Shown here: positions 13,592 to 53,820 of the stretch, piece by piece | Layout of the letters: each line of letters starts with the position of its first letter | Position numbering within the stretch: the stretch's first letter is position 1 | Source: Flavobacteriales bacterium | GTDB lineage: Bacteria > Bacteroidota > Bacteroidia > Flavobacteriales > CAJXXR01 | DNA: 56,415 nt | Direction of reading: 5' to 3' | Assembly: GCA_025210805.1 (NCBI GenBank) | Contig: JAOAQX010000007.1 | Location: 244,695 to 301,109 of the forward strand | Position numbers and translations under genes: made by a program | Notes under the pieces: model-generated | Told to the model about the DNA's origin: nothing | Seen by the model: only the letters and a program-made list of their open reading frames with translations | Database searches by the model: none

Positions 13592-13952
13592 TTTTACATG
13601 ATTTTGTTCGGCAAATGTAGATAATTGAATTTTAAATAACACCCTCTAAAGTCACAATTTTACTGAGTTCTACCTCTTTTATTACCTTTATCCTAGGTTA
13701 TGTTATTTTTGAATATGGAAGACAATTTCTACCGCCTTACTTGTTAATTTTTTTTTAACAAACCCAAACCCTCAGGAAATGAAACAAGTACGCTATTCGT
13801 AATTGTTTTATTTATTAGAATGATAAAGGTTATAAATTCAAATATAATACTTGAGTATGTAAATAACATTGTGTAAATGTAATAAAAAAAATGTAAATAA
13901 CTGACTATTAGTGATGATAAAAAAATATTAAAATTTATTTCAAAAAAGCTTG

Positions 13953-25453: not shown

Positions 25454-25579
25454 CGATGACTTTCCCTATTACCAAATGGGAATAGTGAACCTTGTATTGT
25501 TTGATTTTTTATTGAAATCGAAGAATATAGTCCTGTGCAATTGTTTTTTTTAAAAGTAAATAAAAACATCAAACAACTA

Positions 25580-25690
25580 ATACCATTTATGGTGTTAATT
25601 TACTCATAGGTATAATGCCGATACATTGCTAAAAGCCAGTTATAAACGCAGTGAAATAAGTGGGTAATTTTAGCAAGTAATCGGTATAAT
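25580..25690. repeat. palindromic intergenic repeat, subtype B, copy 2 (best preserved)
   Basis: It begins ATACCATTTATGGTGTTAAT and ends GTAATCGGTAT. The inner inverted pair is GATACATTGCTAAAA and TTTTAGCAAGTAATC. It is aligned over its length with the copy at 15224 and, reversed, with 40749-40859. The rest of 25454-25579 shows nothing I can name. Confidence 0.75.
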
Positions 25691-25708
25691 TCAAAAAAAA
25701 ACAAACAA

Positions 25709-25861
25709 ATGATCAAAGCAATGATAAAGAGAATTAAATGGTATCATATTCCGCTTTTTCTTTTTGGGTTTTATATAGGACAGGAGCTATTTCTTGAAGT
25801 CGAACACTATATTACTATGAATATAAACCCTTATACTGATGTTAAAGTTTTCCTTCCTTAA
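25709..25861 (+). CDS. small hydrophobic ORF coupled to the thioredoxin-fold gene
   Basis: A 50-aa ORF (MIKAMIKRIKWYHIPLFLFG, then FYIGQELFLEVEHY) with a basic start and one possible membrane helix. Its end overlaps the first 23 nt of the next gene in another frame, the layout of translational coupling. No family is recognised. It starts 19 nt after a palindromic repeat. It could be a real small membrane protein or a leader ORF. Confidence 0.4.
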   Translation: MIKAMIKRIKWYHIPLFLFGFYIGQELFLEVEHYITMNINPYTDVKVFLP

Positions 25862-26339
25862 AAGTCTATTTCTTGTCTTATTTTTTGGTGTTGTATCAGG
25901 ATATTTATACGATTATGGTACAGCCAAATACGAAGAATCTAAATTTTATCAACTAGAAGAAGTCCATCTAGATATAAAAGATAATTACTTTACCCTAGAT
26001 AGCCTAGCATTTACATTTCCAAAAACAGGGAAGTATCTTATTGGGCTTTGGGGAACTTATTGCAGTATTTGCATCGATAAATTTGATGATCTTGAAAGAG
26101 TTAAGCAGCAATATCCAGATTTTGAAATTATTTTAATTTCTAGTGAAAATATAGCAGTCATCAAAAATTTTATTGACTATCATCCGCAGTATCCCAGCTT
26201 GAAATTTATAAAATCAAATAGCCATTTTTCCGAAATGGGACTCCTTGCAGTTCCAAACTATTTTTTAGTTGAAAACGGAGAAGGAAGAATGCTATCAAAA
26301 CAAATGCGTGAAATTTATAAAGAATTCCCTGTGGAATAG
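25839..26339 (+). CDS. membrane-anchored thioredoxin-fold protein (TlpA/ResA-like)
   Basis: A 166-aa protein. The N-terminal helix (residues 3-25) anchors or exports it. The thioredoxin motif is LIGLWGTYCSICIDKFDD, with active-site Cys-Ser-Ile-Cys, followed by QYPDFEIILIS and a cis-Pro-type LLAVPNYFLVENGEG. It should act in the periplasm on disulfides, as TlpA/ResA-type reductases do in cytochrome maturation, but no partner gene is close. Its start lies inside the end of the preceding 50-codon ORF. Confidence 0.8.
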   Translation: MLKFSFLKSLFLVLFFGVVSGYLYDYGTAKYEESKFYQLEEVHLDIKDNYFTLDSLAFTFPKTGKYLIGLWGTYCSICIDKFDDLERVKQQYPDFEIILISSENIAVIKNFIDYHPQYPSLKFIKSNSHFSEMGLLAVPNYFLVENGEGRMLSKQMREIYKEFPVE

Positions 26340-28589: not shown

Positions 28590-30359
28590 TTGCTAAACAC
28601 TATTAAAAAAGCAGTACTCCAAGTACATCTTTGGCGGATTAAGAATATTCCGCTCAAGAATTTTTTGCTGATAATTAGTATTTTCATAGGAATTTTTTCG
28701 GGTTTACTAGCGGTGAGTCTCAAGGTTTCTGTTAAAGCATTACAGGGATTTATAGATTCGTTTCATCATTTCGATATTGGAAATTATCTTCATCTGTTTT
28801 ATCCCGTAATTGGAGTCATTTTGAGTTTTTTGATCATAAAAAAAATCCTTAGAATTAAAATTCCAAAAGGGATTCCAGAAATTCTTCATAAAATTTCAAA
28901 AAAAACAGGGAAAATTTCCCATTATCAAGGACTTAATTCTTTTTTAGGTGCCATTTTTACGGTAGGGTTTGGAGGTTCTGTTGGGCTTGAAGCTCCTGCT
29001 GCACAATCGGCTTCGGCTTTTGGTTATAATTTAGGAATTCTATTTAACCTAAATCATAAAGCCAAAATTTTACTCATAGGATGTGCCGCATCGGCAACAC
29101 TTTCTGCTATTTTTAATGCACCCATTGCAGCTGTGGTATTCGCTTTGGAGGTTTTTATGTTAGATCTTACTACAGCATCCATTGTTCCCTTATTATTGTC
29201 TTCGGCAACGGCCTTGCTTACTAAGTATTTTTTGATGGAAAATGATACTTCTTTTCATTATACCTTAGGACAGGTTTTTGATCAAAGTTATCTTCCCCAA
29301 ATCGTACTATTGGGTGTTTTTACGGGGATTTTTTCGGCAGTTTATCACAGGATTTATTTTTATACAGAGCAGTTTTTTAGCAGGTGGAATAAACTTTGGA
29401 TAAAATGGCTTGTGGGTGGTATAATTTTGGGAATTCTGATTTTCCTTTTTCCATCACTCTACGGAGAAGGTTATGATTATATCAATCAATTATTGAGTGG
29501 AAATGATGCCAATTTTTGGATTTTTGAAACCGATGGTTTCCTTGTTTTTGTTATCCTTATGCTACTTATGGTCCTTTTTAAGGCAATCGCCAGTGCAATT
29601 ACCATACAAATGGGTGGAATAGGTGGGGTTTTTGCTCCCAGTTTATTTATTGGAGGTTCTTTCGGTTTTTTGATAGCCAAAGTGCTCAATTTCTTTGGAA
29701 TGGAAGCCAATACGGGCCAGTTTACCCTTTTGGGAATGGCAGGCTTAGTATCGGGATTATTGCACGCTCCACTCACTGCTATCTTTTTAATTGCTGAAAT
29801 TACAGGTGGTTATAAGCTTTTCCTTCCGCTTATGATTGTAACGGCAGTGGCATTCGTAATCAGTAAATATTTTGAACCAAATTCAATCTACAAAAAACAG
29901 CTTATTCGACGGGGTAGTAGCTACGGTCGAGGAAAAGATAGATTGGTAATTGATCAAATATCTTTTAGAGAATTAATAGAAAAAGATTTTTATACGATTC
30001 ATATAGACGACCATTTGGGAAGCTTGGTGGAAGCTGTAAAAAATTCGAGTAGAAATATGTTTCCTGTAATAGATGACGAATACAATTTTTTAGGAATTAT
30101 TCAACTCGATGATATCCGTGAATACCTTTTTGAAACGGAGCTTTACGAACAGATGAGTATCCGAGAAATTGTACATGATCCAGTTGCTCAATGCGATATT
30201 AATATCGAAGCCTCAGAAATGATTGATTTGTTCAAAAAGTCCAATGCTTGGAATATTGTAATTACCGATCAAGGTAAATACGTCGGTTTTGTATCAAGAT
30301 CCAAGATCTTCAATGTGTATCGAAAAACGATGATCCGTTATACTCAGGAAGAGTTTTGA
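28590..30359 (+). CDS. ClC-family chloride channel/antiporter with two CBS domains
   Basis: A 589-aa membrane protein. Residues about 20-430 hold the ClC helices with three selectivity signatures: KGIPEI, then GGSVGLEAPAAQ where the gating Glu is kept but the usual Lys/Arg-Glu-Gly is Leu-Glu-Ala, and GGIGGVFAPSLFIGG. Two cytoplasmic CBS domains follow (residues about 450-575), which in relatives bind adenine nucleotides. The retained gating Glu suggests an H+/Cl- exchanger or a gated channel. The start appears to be TTG at 28590, as no in-frame ATG gives the family N-terminus. It is 57 nt after tex. Confidence 0.88.
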   Translation: MLNTIKKAVLQVHLWRIKNIPLKNFLLIISIFIGIFSGLLAVSLKVSVKALQGFIDSFHHFDIGNYLHLFYPVIGVILSFLIIKKILRIKIPKGIPEILHKISKKTGKISHYQGLNSFLGAIFTVGFGGSVGLEAPAAQSASAFGYNLGILFNLNHKAKILLIGCAASATLSAIFNAPIAAVVFALEVFMLDLTTASIVPLLLSSATALLTKYFLMENDTSFHYTLGQVFDQSYLPQIVLLGVFTGIFSAVYHRIYFYTEQFFSRWNKLWIKWLVGGIILGILIFLFPSLYGEGYDYINQLLSGNDANFWIFETDGFLVFVILMLLMVLFKAIASAITIQMGGIGGVFAPSLFIGGSFGFLIAKVLNFFGMEANTGQFTLLGMAGLVSGLLHAPLTAIFLIAEITGGYKLFLPLMIVTAVAFVISKYFEPNSIYKKQLIRRGSSYGRGKDRLVIDQISFRELIEKDFYTIHIDDHLGSLVEAVKNSSRNMFPVIDDEYNFLGIIQLDDIREYLFETELYEQMSIREIVHDPVAQCDINIEASEMIDLFKKSNAWNIVITDQGKYVGFVSRSKIFNVYRKTMIRYTQEEF

Positions 30360-30499
30360 TTAACATATTGAAAAAAAATATAAAAGACTAATCCCTTAGG
30401 TCAAATTAGCTTTCATTAATAATATATTCACATTTTCAATGTGAAATTGGAATTACCATTTGGTTTTTGCAGAAAATTACTCAGTTCAGTACTTGATAT

Positions 30500-30570
30500 T
30501 GTTGTTTGGAACAAAAAAATACCGTTCAGAACAAAAACGATTTTGACCGTCATTTTTCAAACTACTTTTG
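30500..30570 (+). promoter_or_regulatory. tandem LytTR-like box promoter 1 (FISUMP surface protein)
   Basis: Boxes TGTTGTTTGGAACA (30500-30513) and TACCGTTCAGAACA (30520-30533) repeat at 20 bp. After exactly 29 nt comes the -7 box TACTTTTG (30563-30570), and 23 nt later the ATG at 30594. ACCGTTCAG inside box 2 fits the published LytTR half-site consensus. Confidence 0.75.
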
Positions 30571-30593
30571 AAAAAAATAAACATAGTTTAAAT

Positions 30594-33350
30594 ATGAAAG
30601 TAGTTAGCACCATTAGTAAGTGGTTGTACTTAATTACGGTAATAAGTACACTCACAATTTCTACCCGTTCTTATAGTCAAATAGGAATAGGGACTACCAA
30701 TCCTCATCCTTCTGCCATTTTGGAGTTGGAGTCTACCTCTAAAGGGTTTCTACCACCCAGACTTACAGAAACTCAAAAAAGCAATATGGTAAATCCTGCA
30801 AGCGGACTTATGATCTATAATTTGGATAAGAAGTGTATTGATGTGAATCAAGGAACTCCAACTACTCCTGATTGGAACTGTTATGGCTTCACACCAAATA
30901 TAACAGTTTTTAACGGCTGTAATTCTAATGGAATTGCGGGTAATTATGTCTTAAACCAAGCCTTAACCGCTTCTCACTATTATTCAATAAACATTCAAAA
31001 TGCTGGAACTACTTCTAGTGGAGCGCTTAATTTTGCGACCTCAGATTTAAGTCTTTCTGGTAATAACGGAGGAATCACAGTAGCTTCGGTCTCTCCAACT
31101 TCAGCTAATATTCCAGCAGGAGGAAACCAAGTAGTGACTTACCAACTTACTGGTACCCCTACACAATTAGGTAATTTTACGACTTCATGGTCCAATAGTG
31201 GATTATCTTGTAGTGGAAGTGAAACTATTTCGGGTATTCCTGTTTTGGCTGAAGTTTGTACAGGAACCAATGGACTTAAAGGGAATTATACTCAAAACTC
31301 TGCATTAAACAATACACACTATTTCCGTGTAAGAATCAATAATACAGGATCGGCAGCTTCCGGAACACTTAACTTTGCGACCTCGGATTTAAGTCTTTCT
31401 GGTAATAACGGAGGAATCACCGTAGCTTCAGTTTCTCCAGCCACTGCAACCATTGCAGCAGGAGGAAATCAAGTAGTGACTTACCAACTAACAGGAACTC
31501 CTACGCAATCAGGTAACTTTACGACTTCATGGTCCAATAATGGATTATCTTGTAGTGGAAATAGAACTATTTCGGGTATTCCAGTTTTGGCCGAAGTTTG
31601 TACAGGAACCAATGGACTTAAAGGGAATTATACTCAAAACTCAGCACTAAATAATACGCATTATTTCCGTGTAAGAATCAATAATACAGGATCGGCAGCT
31701 TCCGGAACGCTTAACTTTGCGACATCAGATATTTCTTTATCGGGTAATAACGGAGGAATCACCGTAGCTTCAGTCTCTCCAGCCACTGCAAACATTGCAG
31801 CAGGAGGAAACCAAGTAGTGACTTATCAACTTACAGGAACCCCTACACAATCAGGTAATTTTACGACTTCATGTTCCAATAGTGGATTATCTTGTAGTGG
31901 AAATAGAACTGTTTCTGCTCCTATTGTTACTAATGATTGTAATACAAATGGTATTGAGGGAACCTATATACAAGGAGCGAATTTAACCGCTGCAAACAAA
32001 TTTACGGTTACTATTAATAATACAGGTACTGCTAGTAGTACTCAGACATTCTCTACAGGTGATTTGAGTTTAAGTGGTGTAGGAGGTATGACCGTATCTT
32101 CTGTTAGTCCAACTTCAGTGAATATTCCAGCAGGTGGCTCACAATTAGTTACTTACCAATTAGGAGGTACACCAGCGGCTTCTGGAACCCTCAATGTCAC
32201 ATGGAGTAAGACAGGGTTTACTAGTTGTACTAAAAATCAAGCTGTTCAAATTGGAAATGCCAATTTTAATTTCCCAAAAACAGCGTATATACTTTCCACA
32301 ATGGATGGAAGTCCACAGGTTAATTTCCAAGGTGTAATCAATAATACAACCAAGAAAATTTTAATTAAAGTTCCTTATACAGGAGGAGTGGGAAGCTATG
32401 CGGCATTTAATGGGACTTATGTAGCCAATAATCCAGGTACTGGTCAAAGTGATAATAATAGTTTCCGAATTACTTATCCTGCAGGAAATTTCTCTGCTTC
32501 AGGAGTAATCACAGTAACCATACAAGTGAATGGCGATGGAAACTTTAATATTAAAAAACTATTATTTAATGCTGAAAATACCATAGCTACATTAAACTTT
32601 TCGATAAATGGAGAGAGCAAAGGAAATATTATACTAAAAGGTGCTGGAGGAATTCCAGATAGACGATATAGTGATCCTTCACACCGTTTTGTATATGCTC
32701 CTATACTTGCAGAAGATGGAAATATTTGGCTTAATAACAATTTAGGGGCAAATTATGCCAACAGAAATATGACATCAGTATTTGATCCATCTAAACAAGC
32801 CACCTCTGTAACGGATAGGCATGCTTATGGATCGCATATTCAATGGGGTAGATTTACAGATGGTCATGAGCTTATGACATATCCTACAAATACTACAGCA
32901 AACTTAACGAACCCAACTAATGTTACATATACCAAGTCTCCAACAGATGTCCCAGGTCATAGTAATTTTATTCTTGCATTTGGAACACCTCCTCAATGGC
33001 ACAATAGTGGAGACTGGAGAAGTACTCCAAATACAAATTTATGGCAGGGAGTGAACGGAACGAATAATCCTTGTCCTGTTGGATATAGAGTGCCAACATT
33101 AAGTGAATTCACAACATTGATTAGCGTGGAAGAAATGACTAATCTATCAGGTTATGTAAATTCTTTAATTTTTCCAAATGCAGGAGCAAATGGAGGAGAT
33201 AGTGCTCCAGGAGGTTATGCTAGATATTATACTTCTACAGTGAACTCTGGTACAAGATCTCGAGTAGTTACAAGAACTTTAACTGGGGTACCATTTTTAC
33301 ATCAATCTGGACGTCACAATGGAAACTCTGTGAGATGTATTAAAAATTGA
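30594..33350 (+). CDS. secreted repeat protein with C-terminal FISUMP domain
   Basis: A 918-aa secreted protein. The start at 30594 is set by the signal peptide (MKVVSTISKWLYLITVISTL) and the promoter at 30500-30570; the open frame runs 51 codons further up, through the promoter. Mature N-terminus: QIGIGTTNPHPSAILELEST, then GFLPPRLT, a module shared with the protein at 34047. Residues about 109-555 hold four tandem beta-sandwich-like units of about 113 aa (Cys-started, NFATSDLSLSGNNGGITV, VSP, GGNQVVTYQLTGTP). The middle two are nearly identical at DNA level. The C-terminal 200 residues resemble the FISUMP (TIGR02145) fold: WLNNNLGANYAN, CPVGYRVPTLSEF, then SVRCIKN. Probably a surface protein; no T9SS sorting domain is obvious. 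Confidence 0.8.
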   Translation: MKVVSTISKWLYLITVISTLTISTRSYSQIGIGTTNPHPSAILELESTSKGFLPPRLTETQKSNMVNPASGLMIYNLDKKCIDVNQGTPTTPDWNCYGFTPNITVFNGCNSNGIAGNYVLNQALTASHYYSINIQNAGTTSSGALNFATSDLSLSGNNGGITVASVSPTSANIPAGGNQVVTYQLTGTPTQLGNFTTSWSNSGLSCSGSETISGIPVLAEVCTGTNGLKGNYTQNSALNNTHYFRVRINNTGSAASGTLNFATSDLSLSGNNGGITVASVSPATATIAAGGNQVVTYQLTGTPTQSGNFTTSWSNNGLSCSGNRTISGIPVLAEVCTGTNGLKGNYTQNSALNNTHYFRVRINNTGSAASGTLNFATSDISLSGNNGGITVASVSPATANIAAGGNQVVTYQLTGTPTQSGNFTTSCSNSGLSCSGNRTVSAPIVTNDCNTNGIEGTYIQGANLTAANKFTVTINNTGTASSTQTFSTGDLSLSGVGGMTVSSVSPTSVNIPAGGSQLVTYQLGGTPAASGTLNVTWSKTGFTSCTKNQAVQIGNANFNFPKTAYILSTMDGSPQVNFQGVINNTTKKILIKVPYTGGVGSYAAFNGTYVANNPGTGQSDNNSFRITYPAGNFSASGVITVTIQVNGDGNFNIKKLLFNAENTIATLNFSINGESKGNIILKGAGGIPDRRYSDPSHRFVYAPILAEDGNIWLNNNLGANYANRNMTSVFDPSKQATSVTDRHAYGSHIQWGRFTDGHELMTYPTNTTANLTNPTNVTYTKSPTDVPGHSNFILAFGTPPQWHNSGDWRSTPNTNLWQGVNGTNNPCPVGYRVPTLSEFTTLISVEEMTNLSGYVNSLIFPNAGANGGDSAPGGYARYYTSTVNSGTRSRVVTRTLTGVPFLHQSGRHNGNSVRCIKN
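30918..32250 (+). repeat. in-frame tandem repeats (about 340 nt units)
   Basis: Unit starts, marked by the conserved Cys codon, are at 30918, 31257, 31599 and 31938, so the periods are 339, 342 and 339 nt. Units 2 and 3 are almost identical for long stretches, unit 1 is close in its second half, and unit 4 is diverged. Confidence 0.85.
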
Positions 33351-33369
33351 TAAGTAGAAAAATAATGTT

Positions 33370-33413
33370 AAAAAAAATTGATGTGAGATCTCTTTTCACA
33401 TCAATTTTTTTTG
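33370..33413 (+). terminator. intrinsic terminator
   Basis: AAAAATTGATGTGA pairs with TCACATCAATTTTT and is followed by a T-run, 20 nt after the FISUMP gene stop. The following 33420-33950 contains no gene I can support, only the repeat remnant at 33834. Confidence 0.85.
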
Positions 33414-33833
33414 TTTAATAATCTGTCATGGTAAGAGGAAAAGCTTTTTGCTACTTTTATTAGAAAATGGGATTCGGGTTAGGTTTGTTGTAAATGTTTA
33501 AATAATTCTTGTTTTCCGACCCTATGGGTCAAATCTAAAAAATAGAAGTGTGGCTCAATTTTTAAGTCGAACTTACGTTAATGTTAGGAATTCTGATTGA
33601 ATTATTCAATAACTTCGTCTTTTCAATTTCTTGACCAAGCTACTGATCCTTATTTTAGTAGATATTCTGTATGTATGTTAATATGATAGCAACTCACAAT
33701 ATTCCTAATAATTTCTACATTTTCTAATTTACAAACTTGAAAAAGTATTTCCCTACACCGTTTTTGATCATTTCCCTTAAGCTCTTTGTTTTGATATTTT
33801 GTTATCCAAACAATATGGCAAGATCAAAGAATA

Positions 33834-33851
33834 ATACCATAAATGGTATAA
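33834..33851. repeat. remnant of the palindromic repeat family
   Basis: ATACCATAAATGGTAT is a perfect 16-bp palindrome equal to the two outer ends of the intergenic repeat family joined with no interior. It may be a deletion footprint or a minimal copy. Confidence 0.45.
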
Positions 33852-33959
33852 CAGCATGACTCTTTTTTCTGTACGCTTTAAAGATAATTCAATAATTTTT
33901 TACCCTCCGCTAAGGTTCTGCAATGGAATTGTAGGATTTTTATCCCATTTCTGGGGTAA

Positions 33960-34003
33960 AAAAAAGAGACTGCCATATTATTTTATGGATCAGTCTCTTG
34001 GTA
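33960..34003 (-). terminator. intrinsic terminator of the propeller-protein gene
   Basis: On the minus strand AAGAGACTG and CAGTCTCTT flank an AT loop and are followed by eight T. It lies about 45 nt past the stop of the gene at 34047. Confidence 0.8.
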
Positions 34004-34046
34004 ATCTAAAAATGAAATTTATTTAGTTGGCAAGAAGAAGAGTGTA

Positions 34047-35480
34047 TCAGTAAATCAAATAAACGGCTCCTAAATCACTGTTATCTCTCGGAGCTCCTAC
34101 TATGGCTTGAGTTCCTACTGAATGAAAGCTCACTGAAAACCCAAAATCGTTGATCCCAATATGATTATCCGGCGTTATTTTTTTGTGTTCTACCCAATTA
34201 TTATTGCTATTTAGAGAGTAAAGGTAAGCAGCTCCTATTTTTGAATTATCTATCGGTGCACCAATAATCATTCTAGACCCATCATTACTAAAATCTAAAG
34301 AGGTACCAAATTCACTTGCTCCGATAGCATTTGTAGGAATAATTTTTTGATTTTGTACCCAAACATTAGATCCATTTAAAGAATATATATAAACTGCTCC
34401 AATGCTATTATTATCAGTGTATGAGCCTACACTAAGTGTGGTCCCATCGGAATTTAAGGCAATTGATCTACCAAATTTTCCTGCTCCAACATTGTTAGTT
34501 GGAATTATCTTTTGATCTTGCACCCAAACGTTGGATCCATTTAGTGAAAACACGTAAACCGCTCCAATGTCCGAATTATCAAGATATGCACTCACAATAA
34601 AACGTGTTCCATCTGCATTTAGTGCCATAGCAAGGCCAAATAGACCATTGCCAATACCATTTGTAGGAATAATCTTTTGATCTTGTACCCAAACATTAGA
34701 TCCATCTAACGAATAAACATATACAGCGCCTATACTGCCGTTATCAGATAAAGAACTTGCAATAATTTTCGATCCATCTGCATTGAAATCTACAGAACCT
34801 CCAAATTGACCTGTACCAATTCCATTAGTTGGAACAATTTTTTGATCTTCTACCCAAACATTTGATCCATTTAATGAATAGATATATACTGCTCCTATAC
34901 TGTTATCATCGGAAAATGCACCTACGGCAATTTTTGTACCATCAGGACTCATTTTGGTAGCATAACCAAAGTTACTTACTCCAATATTATTCGTAGGTAC
35001 TATTTTTTGATCTTCTGTCCAGACACTGTCGTTTATGGAGTAAACGTAAACAGCACCCATACTTGAATCGTCTAAATATGCACCAACTACTCCGTTTTTT
35101 CCGTCATCACTCAAACTAACGGTTGTACCAAAATATGAACTCCCTATTCCATTGGGGGTAATTATTTTTTTCTGTTTTGTAGGTAGGTTGTAAACTTCAA
35201 TATTAGTACATAAATTCACCCAGATATTCGAATTATAAGTACATAAACAATTTTCATCTATACTGTAGACCATCAATCCTTCTGCAGGATTTATAATATC
35301 GTCAATTTGACTATAAGTCAACCTAGGCATCAAGAACCCTTGAGTACTTGAGGATAATTCTAAAGTGGCCGATTGATCAGGAATCGTTGTTCCAATACCG
35401 ATTTGAGCGAAACTAGAAAAAGATGTGACTGTTAGAATAAGTAGTATAAAGGCAATACCTAACATTGATTTATTTTTCAT
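34047..35480 (-). CDS. secreted FG-GAP-like seven-bladed propeller protein
   Basis: A 477-aa secreted protein. I start it at 35480 (MKNKSMLGIAFILLILTVTS), a signal peptide that also fits the promoter geometry upstream. The mature protein begins QIGIGTTIPDQSATLELSSS, then GFLMPRLT and INPAEGLMVYSIDENC, the same module as in the FISUMP protein at 30594. From residue about 110 to the end there are seven repeats of about 52 aa with the pattern QKI(I/V)PTNxIGxxxFG, xxDGxxxxVGA, xDNSxIGAVYVYSL, NxWV. Seven FG-GAP-like units make a closed beta-propeller. No sorting domain follows, so it may stay periplasmic or bind another surface component. Its role is unknown; the shared module and promoter tie it to its neighbours. 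Confidence 0.8.
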   Translation of the reverse strand: MKNKSMLGIAFILLILTVTSFSSFAQIGIGTTIPDQSATLELSSSTQGFLMPRLTYSQIDDIINPAEGLMVYSIDENCLCTYNSNIWVNLCTNIEVYNLPTKQKKIITPNGIGSSYFGTTVSLSDDGKNGVVGAYLDDSSMGAVYVYSINDSVWTEDQKIVPTNNIGVSNFGYATKMSPDGTKIAVGAFSDDNSIGAVYIYSLNGSNVWVEDQKIVPTNGIGTGQFGGSVDFNADGSKIIASSLSDNGSIGAVYVYSLDGSNVWVQDQKIIPTNGIGNGLFGLAMALNADGTRFIVSAYLDNSDIGAVYVFSLNGSNVWVQDQKIIPTNNVGAGKFGRSIALNSDGTTLSVGSYTDNNSIGAVYIYSLNGSNVWVQNQKIIPTNAIGASEFGTSLDFSNDGSRMIIGAPIDNSKIGAAYLYSLNSNNNWVEHKKITPDNHIGINDFGFSVSFHSVGTQAIVGAPRDNSDLGAVYLIY

Positions 35481-35502
35481 AAAAGAGTTTTTTTTTTGAT
35501 TA

Positions 35503-35573
35503 CAAACTTCACGATACAAAGATTCATGAGAATGTTTTTTGTTCTATACACACAGAATTTGTTCTGAACGACA
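35503..35573 (-). promoter_or_regulatory. tandem LytTR-like box promoter 2 (propeller protein)
   Basis: On the minus strand: box TGTCGTTCAGAACA (35573-35560), box GTGTGTATAGAACA (35553-35540), exactly 29 nt, then GAAGTTTG (35510-35503) at the -7 position, and 22 nt to the ATG at 35480. Same geometry as promoter 1. Confidence 0.72.
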
Positions 35574-36016
35574 GTGTTTTGAATGATAATTTTGAAATGC
35601 ACACAAGAATCTAAACTAGGGTTATCGATTTTTTGATATTTCAGTTTGAAAAACTAGGAAAATGATACGATAAGAGTTTGAAAATTATTGTCTATTCACT
35701 ATTTATAGAGTAAAAGTAATATGGCTGTGGCTTAAATACTTATGTAGATTGTATATGATTAGTTATCTAAATATAAGAAGGGAAATCTTATTTAAAATAA
35801 TCCGAACAAAAGCATGTGTAATAAACTAAAATCATTTTTGGTTTATTAAAAAAAGAGTTCTTTTTAGATAAATGTTTTAGAACAAATTCATATCAAAAAA
35901 AGCAATAATTTTTGGTGAGTATCCATTAACTAAAAAAAAGAACTGGTGCTATTTTTGAGTAAACACAACCTTTGTTCGGAATAAGTATTATTTTTCATAC
36001 CAGAACAAGAACAGCG
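35574..36016. other. AT-rich stretch with no recognised gene
   Basis: Within this stretch the only reading signal I see is a 22-codon minus-strand ORF at 35930-35998 (starts MKNNTYSEQR, ends in Phe-Phe) placed 18 nt after promoter 3. It could be a short peptide, a leader, or chance inside a non-coding RNA. Several additional GAACA half-site-like words are scattered here. Confidence 0.3.
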
Positions 36017-36087
36017 TAAAAGTACAATTTTGGTTCTTATAAGAAGTTGAAAATGTTATAAACGACAGAATCCTGTTCTCAATGACA
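36017..36087 (-). promoter_or_regulatory. tandem LytTR-like box promoter 3, no recognised gene downstream
   Basis: On the minus strand: box TGTCATTGAGAACA (36087-36074), box TGTCGTTTATAACA (36067-36054), exactly 29 nt, then TACTTTTA (36024-36017). It points away from the HTH pair, toward 35574-36016. Confidence 0.6.
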
Positions 36088-36103
36088 TTAAGATTTATTT
36101 ATA

Positions 36104-36143
36104 TAAAAAAAGGGAAATCAAATACGATATTTGAAGTCCCTCA
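36104..36143 (-). terminator. intrinsic terminator of the HTH pair
   Basis: On the minus strand AGGGACTTCAAATA pairs with TATTTGATTTCCCT and is followed by seven T, 38 nt after the stop of the second HTH gene. Confidence 0.85.
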
Positions 36144-36181
36144 TTCACTAAACCATCACCTTTAATCACGCTGAAAATACA

Positions 36182-36532
36182 CTAATATCCTTCCTGGAAA
36201 ATTCTCTTCCAGTTAGCAATTGTATTTCTACTCATTTTATAAATATTTGCTACTTCCCTATTAGAGTACCCATATTCTTTTTGATTTTCCAGAATATACT
36301 TTATAAAATCTTTGTCATAGCTATTTTGAACCTTTATTCCTGAATTACTACTTTTCGGTTTGATGGATTTCTTAATTATTTCATTAAGTTCTCGAATCTG
36401 TTTTAAAGAAATTTCTCCCTTTTCAATAGTATTAATTGACTTAATCAAAGAAGCTCTTATTGGGCTTGGAATGTCTATTGCCTTATCATTCAGAAAGTCC
36501 AAATACAGTGCTTTATAGTTAATTCGATTCAT
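36182..36532 (-). CDS. HTH protein, second of a coupled pair
   Basis: A 116-aa basic protein. I start it at 36532 (MNRINYKALYLDFLNDKAID) because that ATG overlaps the stop of the upstream gene as ATGA; the frame also allows an ATG at 36553. Residues 1-60 are helical. The C-terminal 45 residues are a helix-turn-helix of the transposase-repressor type: FIKYILENQKEYGYSNREVA, then YKMSRNTIANWKRIF. No catalytic domain is present, so it is a DNA-binding protein, not a transposase. Pairs of this kind recur in flavobacterial genomes and are often labelled transposase; this comparison is from memory. It is probably expressed from promoter 4 and ends before a strong terminator. Confidence 0.7.
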   Translation of the reverse strand: MNRINYKALYLDFLNDKAIDIPSPIRASLIKSINTIEKGEISLKQIRELNEIIKKSIKPKSSNSGIKVQNSYDKDFIKYILENQKEYGYSNREVANIYKMSRNTIANWKRIFQEGY

Positions 36533-36963
36533 TTGGCATATTTCTTTTTCCATCTATAGATAGTAGTTCTTGGTATTGAATATCGATCAATGATTTGAGA
36601 AACACTCATTTTTTTGGATTCTATCTGCTCCAAAATCCATTTGATTATTTCTGGACTATAAAGATTTTTTTTGAAGCTGTATGACTTCTGGATTTCTTGG
36701 TTTTTAGGTTTACTCGCTATTTTGGTAGTTGCTGCACTTGGAGTGAACATTTGTAAATGTGTATGATAAATCATAAAAAAGTTATAGTCAAGTAATTTGC
36801 ACCACCTCAATAAAATAGAAGAATCTAACGAGGACTGTTGATACATTGTATGTATATCATCTTTACTACAATTCAGAAAAGAACAAGCCCTTGATAAGGA
36901 TAGCCCTTTTTCTTCAGAGATAATTTTGAGGTGCTTGCCCATATGTATTTCTTTATAATCCAT
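36529..36963 (-). CDS. HTH protein, first of a coupled pair
   Basis: A 144-aa protein. The start at 36963 (MDYKEIHMGKHLKIISEEKG) is chosen from an AAGGT ribosome-site-like word and from the promoter: the -7 box lies 24 nt upstream, as in promoters 1 and 2. The frame stays open to 37008, which would overlap the promoter. Residues 8-75 look like an XRE-type HTH plus a short helical module (LSLSRACSFLNCSKDDIHTM ... SSILLRWCKLLDYNFFMIY). The C-terminus has a second HTH of the insertion-sequence OrfA type (SVSQIIDRYSIPRTTIYRWK). No catalytic residues of a transposase are seen. Its stop overlaps the next gene by 4 nt. Confidence 0.72.
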   Translation of the reverse strand: MDYKEIHMGKHLKIISEEKGLSLSRACSFLNCSKDDIHTMYQQSSLDSSILLRWCKLLDYNFFMIYHTHLQMFTPSAATTKIASKPKNQEIQKSYSFKKNLYSPEIIKWILEQIESKKMSVSQIIDRYSIPRTTIYRWKKKYAK

Positions 36964-36987
36964 ATTTACCTTATCTAAAGTTTGAAA

Positions 36988-37058
36988 CAAAACTATAGAC
37001 AAAATCATAAAAATAAATTGAGAATGTTGTAAACGGTCAGTTTATGTTCAGAACGACA
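36988..37058 (-). promoter_or_regulatory. tandem LytTR-like box promoter 4 (HTH pair)
   Basis: On the minus strand: box TGTCGTTCTGAACA (37058-37045), box GACCGTTTACAACA (37038-37025), exactly 29 nt, then TAGTTTTG (36995-36988), then 24 nt to the ATG at 36963. Confidence 0.75.
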
Positions 37059-37100
37059 TAAAACGTAGATTTTTAGTTCTTTTTTTCTTTGAATTGAAAC

Positions 37101-37128
37101 AGAGTGATTGGTTTTATCTAATCACTCT
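37101..37128. other. hairpin in the gap upstream of the HTH pair
   Basis: AGAGTGATT pairs with AATCACTCT around a 10-nt loop. No T-run follows on either strand, so it is not a standard terminator; it lies between promoters 5 and 4 and could shape or end a transcript from promoter 5. Confidence 0.4.
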
Positions 37129-37270
37129 GATAATCAATCTTATCAAGAGAATATAAAATTACACTACACACTAACATCGATTTTCGAATAAAGAGAATCC
37201 ATGTTTCAAAATATTCAAATATTAGGAATATACAATTAACTCGCACTCGTGTATGTACAAAACTCTTGAG

Positions 37271-37351
37271 CAAACTTATAAGCAAAAATTGAAATTAGTA
37301 TTTAAAAGCGGGTCCTTTGTTCTGAGCGGTATGTTTTTGTTACTAATAGCA
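37271..37351 (-). promoter_or_regulatory. tandem LytTR-like box promoter 5, shifted geometry
   Basis: On the minus strand: box TGCTATTAGTAACA (37351-37338) and box TACCGCTCAGAACA (37331-37318) at 20 bp. The best -7 box, TAAGTTTG (37278-37271), is 39 nt away, which is 29 plus one helical turn; AATTTTTG lies at 27 nt. Downstream, 37059-37270 holds no recognised gene. Confidence 0.5.
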
Positions 37352-37497
37352 CAAATAGATGGATTTGTTTTATAAATGGAAGTTTCATTATCAATTAATA
37401 AAAATATATCTATATTATTGCTAATTATATAATAAAACTTACTCGTAAAAACCCTTGAATGACTTATGTTGCTATTTTTGAAAACTTTACACTCAGA

Positions 37498-39213
37498 ATG
37501 GTTTTGCTGTTTTTGCTGTTTAGAATGGGTTGTTTTCAAATATTTGGACAAAAGAAATTTAGCTGGACCAATTTGGAAGTAAAAGGAGATTATTATAACA
37601 ATGCTTTAGAGGTTGATAGTGCAGTCAAGTATTATAATCTTTGTTTAGATATAATTCCTAAACAAAATAAATCTATAGCTCACCATATATTATTTAAAAA
37701 AGCTAAGGTGTTAGAGGCGTCGAACAGAAGCTATGTTAATGCTCTAGATATCCTTATTGATTTAAAATCCGACATTGTTCCCAAAGAAAATCCTAAACTA
37801 TTGATAAGGGTTTATATACTGATGTCATTGATTAACGAAAAAATGGTATTGGAAAAAGAAGCCAAAGACTATCTAAATATTGCTTGGAAATTGATTAAAG
37901 AATATAAGTTGGAAGAAGAATTACTTTCATTATATTATCTTAGATTAGGATCTGTTTATCGTGTTTTTTTCGAAACAGACTCTGCATATATCGCAAATCA
38001 AAAAGGTCTTTTATTAGCACAGGAATACAATGACACGATTAATTTGCCTGATCTATATATGGCAAGTGCTTTTATTGCGTCTCGAAGAAAAAAATATAAA
38101 AAAGCTATTTCTTTGTTAGAGCTTGCAGCAAAAGCAAACCATCGTATAAAAAGATTAGAAGAAGAAGCGGGGAACTATATTAATATCGCCAAAATTTATT
38201 CTCGTATCAATATGCAAGATAGTGCATTACACTATTTTAATAAAAAAGATCAAATACTACCGAGTGATTCAAGGTTATTTAGGAATGGTTATTCTTTGTT
38301 TTATAAAGCACGTGTATTTGAGAAAATGAAACAAATTGATTCTGCAAATGTTTATTATGCTGAAGCTTATAAACGTCAAAAACAGAGTCGTGTTCAGGAC
38401 AATCTTATTATTCAAAAAATTTCACAAAAATATGAGAAAGCGAAGTATTCCGTGATTATTAAGGATCGAGAATTGAATATTGAAAAACAAAAATACTGGA
38501 TAACCTTGTTAATTATTGTATCCAGCATTGTAGTAATAGTCTTATTAATTACATGGTTTTTTATGCATAAAACTAGGAAGTTGAATAGAAAAATACAAAT
38601 TCAGAAAACACGTTTATTAAGAGCCAACAAAAAACTTAATAAGTCAATAGTTCAAACCAATTTCTTGATGAGAGAGCTACATCATAGAGTAAAAAACAAT
38701 TTACAACTGATTATTAGTTTAATAGAGCTAAATTTTGATACATTCTCTGAAGATGAATTAATTAACAGAATTCATACAATATCAGCTTGCCATAATCTGA
38801 TGTATTTAGATGACGATTTTGAGGAACTTGAAGTTTCTAAATATATTGCAGAATTATGTGAGAATATTATTTACTCAAATGATTATCGAATAGGAAGCAA
38901 TTATAATTTGTCTATTTCTGATATGCATTTGAATCTCGAAAAGCTCGTTCCAATAGGTTTGATTATTAATGAGTTAATGACTAATTCTTTAAAGCATGCT
39001 AATCCAGATTCTGGGGATTTAGATATTCATATAGGTCTTAATCTTGAAAAGAAGGGTTTGCTAAGGGTGTCTTTTAATGATAATGGTATCATGCCAATAC
39101 ATGAGAAACCTATGGGATTTGGAACTCATGTAATATATACAATGGTAAAACAGCTCAGAGGGGAAATTAAAAATAATGAGTTGAATGATTTTTCTTTTTG
39201 CATAAATGTATAA
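37498..39213 (+). CDS. TPR-containing sensor histidine kinase, HisKA_2 type
   Basis: A 571-aa kinase. I start it at 37498 (MVLLFLLFRMGCFQIFGQ), an export signal preceded by a TATTTTTG -7-like box at 37473; an ATG at 37459 would also be in frame. Residues 25-320 are helical repeats of TPR character (YYNNALEVDSAVKYYNLCLD, ASAFIASRRKKYKKAISLLE), predicted extracytoplasmic. One transmembrane helix follows (YWITLLIIVSSIVVIVLLIT). The cytoplasmic kinase has the phosphoacceptor block MRELHHRVKNNLQ (His near 396), N-box NELMTNSLKHA near 491-501, DNG near 530 and GFGTHV near 540. Its most likely partner is the LytTR regulator at 40012, two genes downstream. Confidence 0.85.
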   Translation: MVLLFLLFRMGCFQIFGQKKFSWTNLEVKGDYYNNALEVDSAVKYYNLCLDIIPKQNKSIAHHILFKKAKVLEASNRSYVNALDILIDLKSDIVPKENPKLLIRVYILMSLINEKMVLEKEAKDYLNIAWKLIKEYKLEEELLSLYYLRLGSVYRVFFETDSAYIANQKGLLLAQEYNDTINLPDLYMASAFIASRRKKYKKAISLLELAAKANHRIKRLEEEAGNYINIAKIYSRINMQDSALHYFNKKDQILPSDSRLFRNGYSLFYKARVFEKMKQIDSANVYYAEAYKRQKQSRVQDNLIIQKISQKYEKAKYSVIIKDRELNIEKQKYWITLLIIVSSIVVIVLLITWFFMHKTRKLNRKIQIQKTRLLRANKKLNKSIVQTNFLMRELHHRVKNNLQLIISLIELNFDTFSEDELINRIHTISACHNLMYLDDDFEELEVSKYIAELCENIIYSNDYRIGSNYNLSISDMHLNLEKLVPIGLIINELMTNSLKHANPDSGDLDIHIGLNLEKKGLLRVSFNDNGIMPIHEKPMGFGTHVIYTMVKQLRGEIKNNELNDFSFCINV

Positions 39214-39273
39214 CAAAATCTTAATCAACAGCTATACTGTTTTATTTAATGTTATCGTTTGTTTCGTTACTGT

Positions 39274-39344
39274 TGCTGTTTACAACAAAATAATGCTGTT
39301 CGTAACAATTGCTTTTGTGTTAATACTTTGTTTTCTTAATCTTG
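39274..39344 (+). promoter_or_regulatory. tandem LytTR-like box promoter 6 (pseudokinase and LytTR regulator)
   Basis: Boxes TGCTGTTTACAACA (39274-39287) and TGCTGTTCGTAACA (39294-39307) at 20 bp, exactly 29 nt, then TAATCTTG (39337-39344). The ATG at 39378 follows 33 nt later. This makes the downstream regulator a candidate for autoregulation. Confidence 0.72.
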
Positions 39345-39377
39345 CCTTATTCTAGTATTCAATTAAAGCTCGCAACT

Positions 39378-39986
39378 ATGAAATTGATAAAAATGACCGA
39401 AATACATTTCGAAAAGAAAATACCGAAAGGATCCAATATCAACTTATTTTTGAGTAGGAAATCAAGACATCTTTTTAATAATAATTTACAAATAATTGCC
39501 AATCTTATAGAAAATAATATCCATAAGTACTGTAATGGAAATAGCCATCAAATTGAAGATATTGATTCAAAAATTCAAACGATCGCCCTATGGCATAATT
39601 CCATTAATCTATTAAATGAAAATTTTGAGTATAATCTTGAAGCTTATTTTTCAGAACTATGTAGAAATATCACTCATTCTTATTCGTCAAACATACCAAT
39701 AATTAGATTCGATATCTCAGCTAAGGAGATTTTATTTAATACAACAACGATTCAGCCACTTAGCTTGATATTGAACGAGCTAATTATTCATTCTTTACGT
39801 ATTAATCAAGAACTCTTACGGGATTTGACAATCTCGATATCCGTTGAATGTATTAAGAAAAGGCGGTATAAGCTGAAATACTATGATGACGGAGAAAACT
39901 CCTATGAATTAAATAATCATGAGAAGGAAATTGTTCAAATTTTCATAGACCAATTAAATGGACATCTGATTAACACTTATCGTTAA
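39378..39986 (+). CDS. degenerate HisKA_2 histidine kinase, possible phosphotransfer protein
   Basis: A 202-aa cytoplasmic protein with no signal or membrane helix. It aligns with the kinase domain of the neighbouring sensor: FLSRKSRHLFNNNLQIIANL here against FLMRELHHRVKNNLQLIISL there, so the phosphoacceptor His is kept (His31). The ATP-binding half has decayed: the N-box reads NELIIHSLR, with His (138) in place of the Mg-binding Asn, a DDG remains, and the glycine-rich lid is absent. I infer that it cannot bind ATP but could dimerise or pass phosphate, as Spo0B does. The start at 39378 is the first ATG after promoter 6; a TTG at 39342 lies inside the -7 box. It ends 25 nt before the LytTR regulator, so both share a transcript. 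Confidence 0.7.
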   Translation: MKLIKMTEIHFEKKIPKGSNINLFLSRKSRHLFNNNLQIIANLIENNIHKYCNGNSHQIEDIDSKIQTIALWHNSINLLNENFEYNLEAYFSELCRNITHSYSSNIPIIRFDISAKEILFNTTTIQPLSLILNELIIHSLRINQELLRDLTISISVECIKKRRYKLKYYDDGENSYELNNHEKEIVQIFIDQLNGHLINTYR

Positions 39987-40011
39987 CTTCAATCCATTAT
40001 CGAAAATATTC

Positions 40012-40734
40012 ATGCTAAATTTTACCAAAATGTTGAGTGTACAAAAGATAAAGACTGTTCTTGTAGTAGAAGACGAGTTATTGATTGCGCAAACTATTTC
40101 ATTATATCTGCAAAAGAAAGAATACTCTGTTGTTAAGATAACTACCTGTTTTGAGGATACAGTGGATTTTTTGAAAGAAAATAAAGTTGATATTGTCTTG
40201 ATAGATATAGCATTAGAGGGAGAAAAATCAGGAATTGATTTAGGGAAGTTTATTAATGTGGAATATCAAATACCCTTTGTATATGTTACTGCACAACAAG
40301 ATGACCATTTTGTTAGTGAGGCCAAAAGGACTAAACCGAGGGGTTACCTTACAAAACCTATAAGATACCAAGATCTCTATACAACCTTAGAGATGATTGA
40401 AATTAATTCGGAAGAAGATATATTGAAAATATCTGTAGATAAAAAGATCCTTGAATTAAAAAAAAGAGACATTTTATTCATCCAATCAGACCATGTTTAT
40501 ATTAATATACAAACCACTATTAGGAAAAAGCCATTTTTGTTAAGAGGGAGTCTTGTTAATATTCTTGCAATATTAGACGACTCACGTTTTCAGCAAGTTC
40601 ATCGGTCTTTTATTGCAAACATAAAAAAGGTTGAAAGTTGGAGCTATAACTGGCTGCGAATATCAGAGTTCGAAATTCCCATTGGACGATATAAAAAAAA
40701 TGAAATACTATCAGTTCTGAGACACTCAAAATAA
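40012..40734 (+). CDS. response regulator, REC-LytTR
   Basis: A 240-aa regulator. The receiver domain (residues 14-130) has the acidic pair in VVEDELL, the phosphoacceptor Asp near 65 in IVLIDIALEGEKSG, a Thr in YVTAQQDD and the Lys in YLTKPI. The LytTR DNA-binding domain fills the C-terminus (IQSDHVYINIQTT ... FQQVHRSFIANIKKVESW). LytTR domains bind pairs of direct half-sites. It is the obvious candidate for binding the six tandem-box promoters at 30.5-39.3 kb, including its own. An in-frame ATG at 40030 is an alternative start. Confidence 0.88.
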   Translation: MLNFTKMLSVQKIKTVLVVEDELLIAQTISLYLQKKEYSVVKITTCFEDTVDFLKENKVDIVLIDIALEGEKSGIDLGKFINVEYQIPFVYVTAQQDDHFVSEAKRTKPRGYLTKPIRYQDLYTTLEMIEINSEEDILKISVDKKILELKKRDILFIQSDHVYINIQTTIRKKPFLLRGSLVNILAILDDSRFQQVHRSFIANIKKVESWSYNWLRISEFEIPIGRYKKNEILSVLRHSK

Positions 40735-40748
40735 ATTAGTTTTTGGTT

Positions 40749-40859
40749 TGATACCGATTATTTGATAAATTTACTTTCTTATCTCATTACATTAATTACT
40801 GATTTTCATAAGTTTATTAGTGCGGTATCAAAGAGTAAATTAACCCCATAAATGGTATG
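40749..40859. repeat. palindromic intergenic repeat, subtype B, inverted copy
   Basis: It begins ATACCGATTATTTGATAAAT and ends TTAACCCCATAAATGGTAT. Its reverse complement aligns with the copy at 25580-25690, with divergence in the interior. Its last bases provide the ATG of the next ORF. Confidence 0.6.
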
Positions 40860-41129
40860 AATAATTTTAAAAAAATAAAATTTTCATTTTGGATTACATT
40901 GGGATATTATGCAGTGGCATGGATTTACTATCATTTTTTGTTTGTTTATGATATTGATTTTGATGTCATCTGGGGTTATCTGCAACTAGTTGTTTCATTT
41001 CCCGCTTTTCTATCTTATTTCATTCAATTTACTTCAGGTGATTCTATGGCTATCGTTGTTGCTATTTTGTTTTTTATATTTTTTTGGATATTGATGTATT
41101 TATTGCTTTTATACCGTTTACGGCGTTAA
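40857..41129 (+). CDS. small membrane protein flanked by repeats
   Basis: A 90-aa ORF with three hydrophobic segments (FWITLGYYAVAWIYYHFLFV, then VIWGYLQLVVSFPAFLSYF and MAIVVAILFFIFFWILMYLL), consistent with three transmembrane helices. No family is recognised. The ATG lies in the last bases of the upstream palindromic repeat, and the last six codons with the TAA stop lie in the next repeat (41110-41261). Either a small gene has been hemmed in by two insertions or the ORF ends are repeat-derived. The interior composition looks like a real membrane protein. Confidence 0.5.
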   Translation: MNNFKKIKFSFWITLGYYAVAWIYYHFLFVYDIDFDVIWGYLQLVVSFPAFLSYFIQFTSGDSMAIVVAILFFIFFWILMYLLLLYRLRR

Positions 41130-41261
41130 TTTACCCATTTGTTTCAGCTTCTTTTGGAGTGCTATCGTAGTGGAACATCCCCCTTTCCCTCCCGAAAAAT
41201 CGGGACAAGCTATTCAAAGGGGGCTTTTGTATTTGGGTAAATTAACACCATAAATGGTATT
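41110..41261. repeat. palindromic intergenic repeat, subtype A, copy 3 (best preserved)
   Basis: It begins ATACCGTTTACGGCGTTAAT and ends TTAACACCATAAATGGTATT, with the nested centre CCCCCTTT, TCCCGAAAAATCGGGA, then AAAGGGGG. The whole element can fold as one long hairpin with a GC-rich tip. Confidence 0.75.
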
Positions 41262-41277
41262 ACTCATTTTCTTTCTA

Positions 41278-41316
41278 TCAAAAAAAAGCCCCACTCAAAT
41301 AAATGAGTGAGGCTAA
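41278..41316 (-). terminator. intrinsic terminator of the PorE-like gene
   Basis: On the minus strand AGCCTCACTCA pairs with TGAGTGGGGCT and is followed by eight T, 36 nt past the stop codon at 41352. Confidence 0.85.
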
Positions 41317-41351
41317 TCAATAAAAATACTATTTTAAATAAACCCGAAAGA

Positions 41352-53061: not shown

Positions 53062-53820
53062 ATGAATCAAAGAATCAAAGCAATCATCATAGATGATGAA
53101 GAACGAGCCAGAAGGGTACTTTCATCAATGCTAGAAGAGTATTGTGCCGACAAAATAGAAGTAATAGGTCAGTGTGCCAATGTTCCACAAGGTGTATTAG
53201 AAATTAATAGGAAAAACCCCGATGTGGTATTTCTGGATATAGAAATGCCAGATTATTCTGGTTTTGAATTGCTGGATTTTTTCAAAGAGGTTGATTTTGA
53301 GATTATTTTTGTTACGGCTTATAATCAGTATGCTTTACAAGCTTTTGAGGTTTCAGCTGTAGATTATATACTCAAACCAGTGCGAATAGACCAACTAGAG
53401 AAAGCGGTAGATAAGCTTTTTAGCAAACAGTCTATTCAAATGAAGGAGCGTTTAGATTTGTTAAAAACGAATTTACAATCGGAAAATAGTAAAATAGCGG
53501 TACCTGTTTCAGATGGCTTGATATTGCTAAAAGTGTGTGAAATCTCTCACCTTATCGCCGATGGATCTTATTCTAAAATTTTTCTAAAAGGCGGAGAAGA
53601 AATGCTTGTGAGTAAAAAACTCAAATATTTTGAAGAACTCTTAGCAAACCAGCATAATTTTTATCGTATTCATCGCTCTTCAATTATCAATATGGAATTT
53701 GTGGTGAAATACAATAGACACGAAAGTGAAGTAACGCTCGAAAATGGTATAGGTGTTAAAGTTTCTAGAGATCAAAAATCCAAATTTGAAGAACGTATCA
53801 AAAGGTTTACCAATGGTTAG
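53062..53820 (+). CDS. response regulator, REC-LytTR
   Basis: A 252-aa regulator. The receiver has IIIDDEERARRVL, phosphoacceptor Asp near 59 in VVFLDIEMPDYSGFEL, FVTAYNQYALQAFEVSAVDY and ILKPV. The LytTR domain begins near 145 and shows the usual HRSSIINMEFV block. It is the natural partner of the propeller kinase at 48477. It is of the commoner LytT/AlgR subtype and differs from the regulator at 40012 in the receiver, which lacks that SAVDY motif. A terminator separates it from the beta-helix gene, so it needs its own promoter. Confidence 0.92.
   Translation: MNQRIKAIIIDDEERARRVLSSMLEEYCADKIEVIGQCANVPQGVLEINRKNPDVVFLDIEMPDYSGFELLDFFKEVDFEIIFVTAYNQYALQAFEVSAVDYILKPVRIDQLEKAVDKLFSKQSIQMKERLDLLKTNLQSENSKIAVPVSDGLILLKVCEISHLIADGSYSKIFLKGGEEMLVSKKLKYFEELLANQHNFYRIHRSSIINMEFVVKYNRHESEVTLENGIGVKVSRDQKSKFEERIKRFTNG

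Follow-up and report, generated by a model that had tools for sequence, protein, structure and literature searches.

The Locus and Its Genes

The window, by which the whole analyzed stretch of 56,415 nucleotides is meant (G000:C7:244695-301109), comes from a genome of 3.12 Mb in 34 contigs, and the order to which its source belongs includes Chryseobacterium, a kinship seen in the searches for relatives. The region 30000-41200 was read by listing its open reading frames and searching them against Pfam and NCBIfam; the tandem boxes described below were then sought in the window and, subsequently, in the whole genome. Genes for two exported proteins, a pair of helix-turn-helix (HTH) proteins, a sensor kinase, a short HisKA_2 protein and a LytTR response regulator are found there, together with six tandem-box sites, S1 to S6 (Table 1). 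An Rfam scan of the window returned two tRNAs and nothing else. A dispersed repeat (ACCATTTATGGTGTTAATTTACCCAT...) occupies the intergenic stretches 25454-25928, 40735-40946 and 41130-41351 of the window, and recurs at other loci of the genome (e.g., L106, L112, and L117).

Table 1. Features of the locus, in window coordinates.
Feature	Position	Strand	Details
S1 tandem box	30503..30533	+	TGTTTGGAACA-N9-CGTTCAGAACA; -7 box TACTTTTG at 30563-30570
Exported protein	30594..33350	+	IGIGT-type N-terminal domain, internal repeats, weak FISUMP-like C-terminal domain
Terminator-like hairpin and T run	33378..33412	+	3' of FISUMP-like gene; z -7.4
Exported protein	34047..35480	-	IGIGT-type N-terminal domain, seven FG-GAP_2 repeats
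S2 tandem box	35540..35570	-	-7 box GAAGTTTG at 35510-35503
S3 tandem box	36054..36084	-	-7 box TACTTTTA at 36024-36017
HTH protein 2	36182..36553	-	123 aa, C-terminal transposase-type HTH
HTH protein 1	36529..36963	-	144 aa from ATG 36963, conserved N-terminal domain, Psq/IS-type HTH
S4 tandem box	37025..37055	-	CGTTCTGAACA-N9-CGTTTACAACA; -7 box TAGTTTTG at 36995-36988
Hairpin	37100..37131	-	CAGAGTGATT...AATCACTCTG, between S5 and S4; z -4.1
S5 tandem box	37318..37348	-	2 mismatches; -7-like TAAGTTTG at 37278-37271; divergent to kinase
Sensor kinase	37498..39213	+	Signal-like sequence, TPR sensor, one transmembrane segment, HisKA_2
S6 tandem box	39277..39307	+	-7 box TAATCTTG at 39337-39344
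Short HisKA_2 protein	39378..39986	+	202 aa; His kept; no sensor or transmembrane segment
Response regulator	40012..40734	+	Receiver (conserved Asp and Lys), LytTR domain

The two exported proteins have in common an N-terminal domain of the form QIGIGTTxPxxSAxLELSST...PRLT, which has 41 matches in the genome. An earlier, sequence-only reading of this DNA had named them a FISUMP protein and a seven-bladed propeller protein and had called them twin surface proteins. The seven FG-GAP_2 repeats of the propeller were confirmed with Pfam; the Fib_succ_major (FISUMP) similarity of the other protein is weak, with an E-value of 6e-5 that lies under both the Pfam and NCBIfam cut-offs. Both proteins carry signal peptides, from which a surface location is judged probable; no T9SS sorting domain was found in either with NCBIfam.

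With the kinase, the domains proposed earlier were likewise found: it possesses a HisKA_2 DHp domain with the phospho-acceptor His and intact N, G1, and G2 motifs (HHRVKNNLQ, N box, DNG, and GFG). Its TPR part is predicted to lie outside the cytoplasm because an N-terminal signal-like sequence is followed by a single transmembrane segment. The regulator encoded from 40012 scored above the Pfam cut-offs for both of its domains (Response_reg, 65 bits; LytTR, 50 bits).

A Common Promoter Architecture

The six sites follow the pattern YGTTNNNAACA-N9-YGTTNNNAACA with a period of exactly 20 bp in every case, and TG(Y)(R)TTNNNAACA is common to all of them, twice per site. They precede the FISUMP-like gene, the FG-GAP gene, the HTH pair, the operon of the short HisKA_2 protein and the LytTR regulator, and two units without a clear gene, as the sequence-only reading had it. 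The boxes are private to this module. Three zero-mismatch matches to the pattern exist in the whole genome, all of them inside the window, and allowing one mismatch adds two more in the window and a single stray match at C34:17899; S5 (37348) departs from the pattern at two positions.

A Bacteroidota -7 box (TAnnTTTG) lies exactly 29 bp past the second box in five of the six sites (S1, S2, S3, S4, and S6). When -7 scores were summed over the sites, offset 29 reached 29 of 36 compared to 17 at the next-best offset, a value attained by none of 20,000 shuffles. At S5, a perfect TAAGTTTG is situated ten bp, or one helical turn, farther out than the -7 box of the other sites. Conservation between the sites is mainly confined to the box bases and this fixed-spacing -7 box; spacer and flanks are not conserved. 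No conserved -33 element is visible, and the box promoters hence look activator-dependent. A generic sigma-70 scan found fewer sites than in shuffled sequence. The likely start codons at 30594, 35480, 36963, and 39378 are each an ATG placed 30-41 nt past the -7 box, from which several starts in the raw list of reading frames are judged to be too early. The promoter of the kinase gene is without the box, and the kinase is thus not visibly part of a positive loop.

Behind S3, a 22-codon reading frame (ATG 35998) begins 26 nt past the -7 box and is accompanied by a T run, with no clear gene in the unit. No gene precedes the strong hairpin at 37131-37100 on the S5 side, and this hairpin may mark the end of the S5 transcript. 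Folding of the S3 unit and of the S5 leader was no better than that of shuffled sequence, though that of the hairpin farther downstream of S5 was, and no remnant of an exported-protein gene was recognized behind either site. S3 could also be a distal promoter of the FG-GAP gene and S5 one of the HTH pair, both being encoded farther downstream on that strand.

A Family of LytTR Modules in One Genome

The locus does not stand alone: it is one of about 12 modules within the same genome. Of the 21 LytTR genes, twelve have an IGIGT-type gene no more than 6 kb away, a number not reached by any of 20,000 chance placements (mean, 2.2; maximum, 10) in a test that is approximate, contigs of undetermined length having been pooled. 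A tree built from 20 of the regulators groups nine of them in a clade supported at 100/99. Eight of these are encoded beside a TPR/HisKA_2 kinase, and the ninth has no kinase but an HTH gene next to it; eight of the nine adjoin genes for IGIGT-type exported proteins, one regulator of the clade having none nearby. Kinase and regulator genes are directly adjacent at seven of the clade loci; in the window module, the S6 promoter and the short HisKA_2 gene come between them. The window encodes one more LytTR regulator, at 53062-53820, which belongs to a different clade and is without an IGIGT-type exported-protein gene close by.

Boxes of the sister modules were sought in an unbiased search that picked out 9-mers recurring at intervals of 20-22 bp before several module genes, with ordinary genes of the same loci serving as control. 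Four modules were singled out, and in each case none of 150 control sets reached the score. Their tandem boxes are all different: GTTCAGAAC in the window, TTAATACCC in C1, AAACTTAAC in C12, and TCACAAAAT in C6:165-170 kb. Perfect matches to the C1, C12, and C6 patterns occur, genome-wide, only in the module of origin; as these patterns were derived from the sites that they match, the informative part is the lack of perfect matches elsewhere. All three sites of the C6 module have their best -7-like box at an identical offset (34). Eight of the 12 modules, each with few promoters, gave no clearly significant shared box; with C34, C3, and C6a the null was not clearly exceeded, and a nine-mer of module C18 beat shuffles. 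A plain pairwise comparison of intergenic regions was also tried and abandoned, being swamped by dispersed repeats and coding sequence. With at least three sister modules carrying boxes of their own, parallel switching without cross-talk could be achieved.

A truncated exported-protein gene is located just upstream of a sister kinase (L084 2799-3086), and two more decayed starts, recognized by eye, are found just upstream of other sister kinases (L080 ~13678-13830 and L083 ~5290-5340). Together, these suggest that exported-protein genes of the IGIGT type turn over rapidly in such modules.

Conservation and the HTH Pair

The sequence-only reading had held that absence of the gene set from every relative would refute it, and the full cluster was indeed found in no other genome among the relatives, the 394 genomes of the order and the 80 Weeksellaceae loci, a sample with very few close relatives. 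In one other genome of the family (83% complete), two genes were sought and neither was found. Conservation is supplied instead by the paralogous modules within the genome itself. In G004, a member of another family, a LytTR gene lies directly ahead of a tandem array of six IGIGT-type genes, each encoding about 240 aa (L123 6118-11769). No significant shared box was detected at this G004 locus, and in one Chryseobacterium locus the null for a shared box was not clearly exceeded.

Two further copies of the HTH pair are present in the genome, both adjoining LytTR genes. The pair was also surveyed at 80 named loci of Chryseobacterium, Empedobacter, Epilithonimonas, and Soonwooa (Weeksellaceae), where the partner HTH gene is present in 76. 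Exported proteins whose start is of the VGI(G/N)T type are encoded within 1 kb at 48 of the 80 loci and within 5 kb at 56; such genes account for 17.5% of genes within 1 kb of the pair and for 1.7% of those beyond 5 kb. A LytTR gene is near the pair at only one of the 80 loci and a kinase at none. Since the Weeksellaceae combine the HTH pair with exported-protein genes and nearly always without LytTR, the pair is a widespread companion of exported-protein genes that was placed under LytTR control in this lineage. It lies under the S4 box but is not specific to the circuit.

At two Chryseobacterium loci, the pair is split by inserted genes, an exported-protein gene among them (L086 7402-9905 and L094 5647-10355). 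In Chryseobacterium, large regulators with an AraC-like C-terminus are encoded in the vicinity of the HTH pair and of exported-protein genes (L085 4765-6429, L092 13246-14952, and L095 6787-8406), where they perhaps stand in for LytTR.

Which Protein Recognizes the Boxes

LytTR operators are 9-bp direct repeats with a spacing of 11-13 bp directly upstream of a promoter, and the repeat sequences vary among paralogous systems of one genome while their length, spacing, and position remain constant (PMC6193735); AgrA, too, binds direct repeats (PMC4227749). The period and position of the window boxes, together with the autoregulation that they imply, fit LytTR operators, direct repeats of 20-22 bp period being placed right upstream of the promoters, the regulator's own included, as in a LytTR regulon. 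That a kinase and LytTR circuit drives its neighbors and itself, as proposed before, is backed by the restriction of the boxes to the locus, the LytTR-like geometry, the fixed -7 spacing, and the recurrence of the modules, even though the binding and activation that it entails are inferred.

It could be argued that the HTH pair binds the boxes, with the two-component genes as just another of its targets, given that the pair is inside the cluster under S4 and keeps company with exported-protein genes in the Weeksellaceae. We consider this unlikely: direct repeats of 20-21 bp period upstream of a promoter are a LytTR signature (PMC6193735), and modules C1, C12, and C6 possess tandem boxes and LytTR without any HTH pair, which argues for LytTR as the binder. 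Another of the 21 LytTR regulators might recognize the boxes and leave the 40012 regulator a bystander, the nearest paralogs being encoded at C3:134949 (41% identical) and C6:147145 (39%), but the confinement of the boxes to the locus, the presence of one ahead of the 40012 gene's own operon, and the different boxes of the other LytTR modules render this improbable. A similarly small chance is accorded to the notion that a single promoter segment was duplicated to give all six, which would then be alike by descent rather than through a common regulator. The apparent turnover of IGIGT-type genes, with a truncated copy in module C1, is in keeping with duplication; against it, the genes behind the six sites are mostly unrelated, and box bases and -7 box have been conserved where spacer and flanks have not. 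Recognition by the 40012 regulator is thus preferred over all three.

The Short HisKA_2 Protein

The protein encoded between the kinase and the regulator had been described as a decayed kinase. Alignment with five kinases of the same genome revealed that the ATP-binding motifs are indeed lost, a His standing in place of the N-box Asn and the ATP lid lacking its FG, such that the intact N box and lid of an active kinase are both missing; the phospho-acceptor His, invariant in all six rows, is nevertheless kept, as are NNLQ and DxG. An acceptor His retained beside a degenerate ATP site would class the protein as phosphotransferase-like. Spo0B and ChpT are histidine phosphotransferases of this description, kinase-derived proteins that retained the His and lost ATP binding. 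The protein at this locus differs in being derived from HisKA_2, the only Pfam family that it matched; the Spo0B and ChpT profiles gave no match. Its nearest relative is the neighboring kinase, at about 30%.

A role in phosphotransfer or as a modulator of the kinase is favored as a possibility, and the serious rival to it is that the protein is a functionless fragment in decay, to which we would give roughly one chance in three. Such a fragment would be expected to have shed its sensor together with its ATP lid and N-box Asn, as this protein has, and no standalone ortholog was found among 394 genomes of the order; the search, which also took in 60 relatives, GTDB contigs, and IMG/VR, returned only full-length or longer kinases of 21-32% identity. 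A structure prediction, made from two sequences, reached a pLDDT of 41, a quality too low for interpretation. Decay is less readily reconciled with a stop-free frame of 202 codons directly behind the S6 promoter and 25 nt ahead of the regulator gene, or with the retention of the phospho-acceptor His and NNLQ.

Comparison with Known Systems

The HdrRM and BrsRM systems of Streptococcus mutans (PMC6193735) resemble the window module in combining a LytTR regulator with direct repeats just upstream of the promoter, in positive feedback, in an 11-13 bp spacer, and in a repeat sequence that differs between paralogs. Their partner, however, is a membrane inhibitor, whereas the window module has a TPR/HisKA_2 kinase, a receiver domain, and exported-protein targets. 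A LytTR Regulatory System (LRS) in the strict sense comprises a cotranscribed membrane inhibitor and no kinase; with HisKA_2 proteins as partners, the module falls outside this class. The agr system of Staphylococcus aureus (AgrC/AgrA; PMC4227749) similarly pairs a sensor kinase with a LytTR response regulator that acts at its own locus through direct repeats. In contrast to agr, no peptide signal genes were recognized at the window locus, the kinase is of the HisKA_2 type with a TPR sensor, and extra HTH genes and the short HisKA_2 protein are present.

FimS and FimR of Porphyromonas gingivalis are a sensor kinase and a regulator that control nearby surface genes, and FimR is not a LytTR regulator. 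The NCBIfam FimS model matched the window kinase weakly over most of its length, with a score of 23 compared to a cut-off of 600.

Proposed Mechanism and Significance

It is proposed with good, though not full, confidence that the locus is a self-contained two-component module, the LytTR regulator of which would activate local exported-protein genes through private boxes. The kinase, located in the inner membrane, would sense something outside the cytoplasm by way of its TPR part and phosphorylate the LytTR regulator, a step that the short HisKA_2 protein would perhaps relay or modulate. A dimer of the regulator would then bind the paired boxes, which have a 20-bp period and immediately precede a -7 box with no clear -33 box. 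It would activate its own operon along with the HTH pair and both exported-protein genes and so establish positive feedback, while the kinase would be made separately. The HTH pair would serve as a DNA-binding companion that probably adjusts the expression of the exported-protein genes. A more far-reaching proposal, held only tentatively and with the odds against it, is that the genome maintains about a dozen insulated modules whose operators co-evolved with their regulators, and that the short HisKA_2 protein provides a phosphotransfer or sequestering link between kinase and regulator.

The module is a variant form of LytTR two-component control, and the family of parallel modules is its most interesting feature; a literature search found no published account of LytTR modules of such kind in the Bacteroidota. 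If the model holds, the organism would naturally contain a series of two-component switches that work in parallel, each with a promoter code of its own, and that select which envelope proteins are made. How LytTR specificity diverges following duplication could be tested directly with this series, and the modules would offer a way into the study of a large class of exported proteins without a known role.
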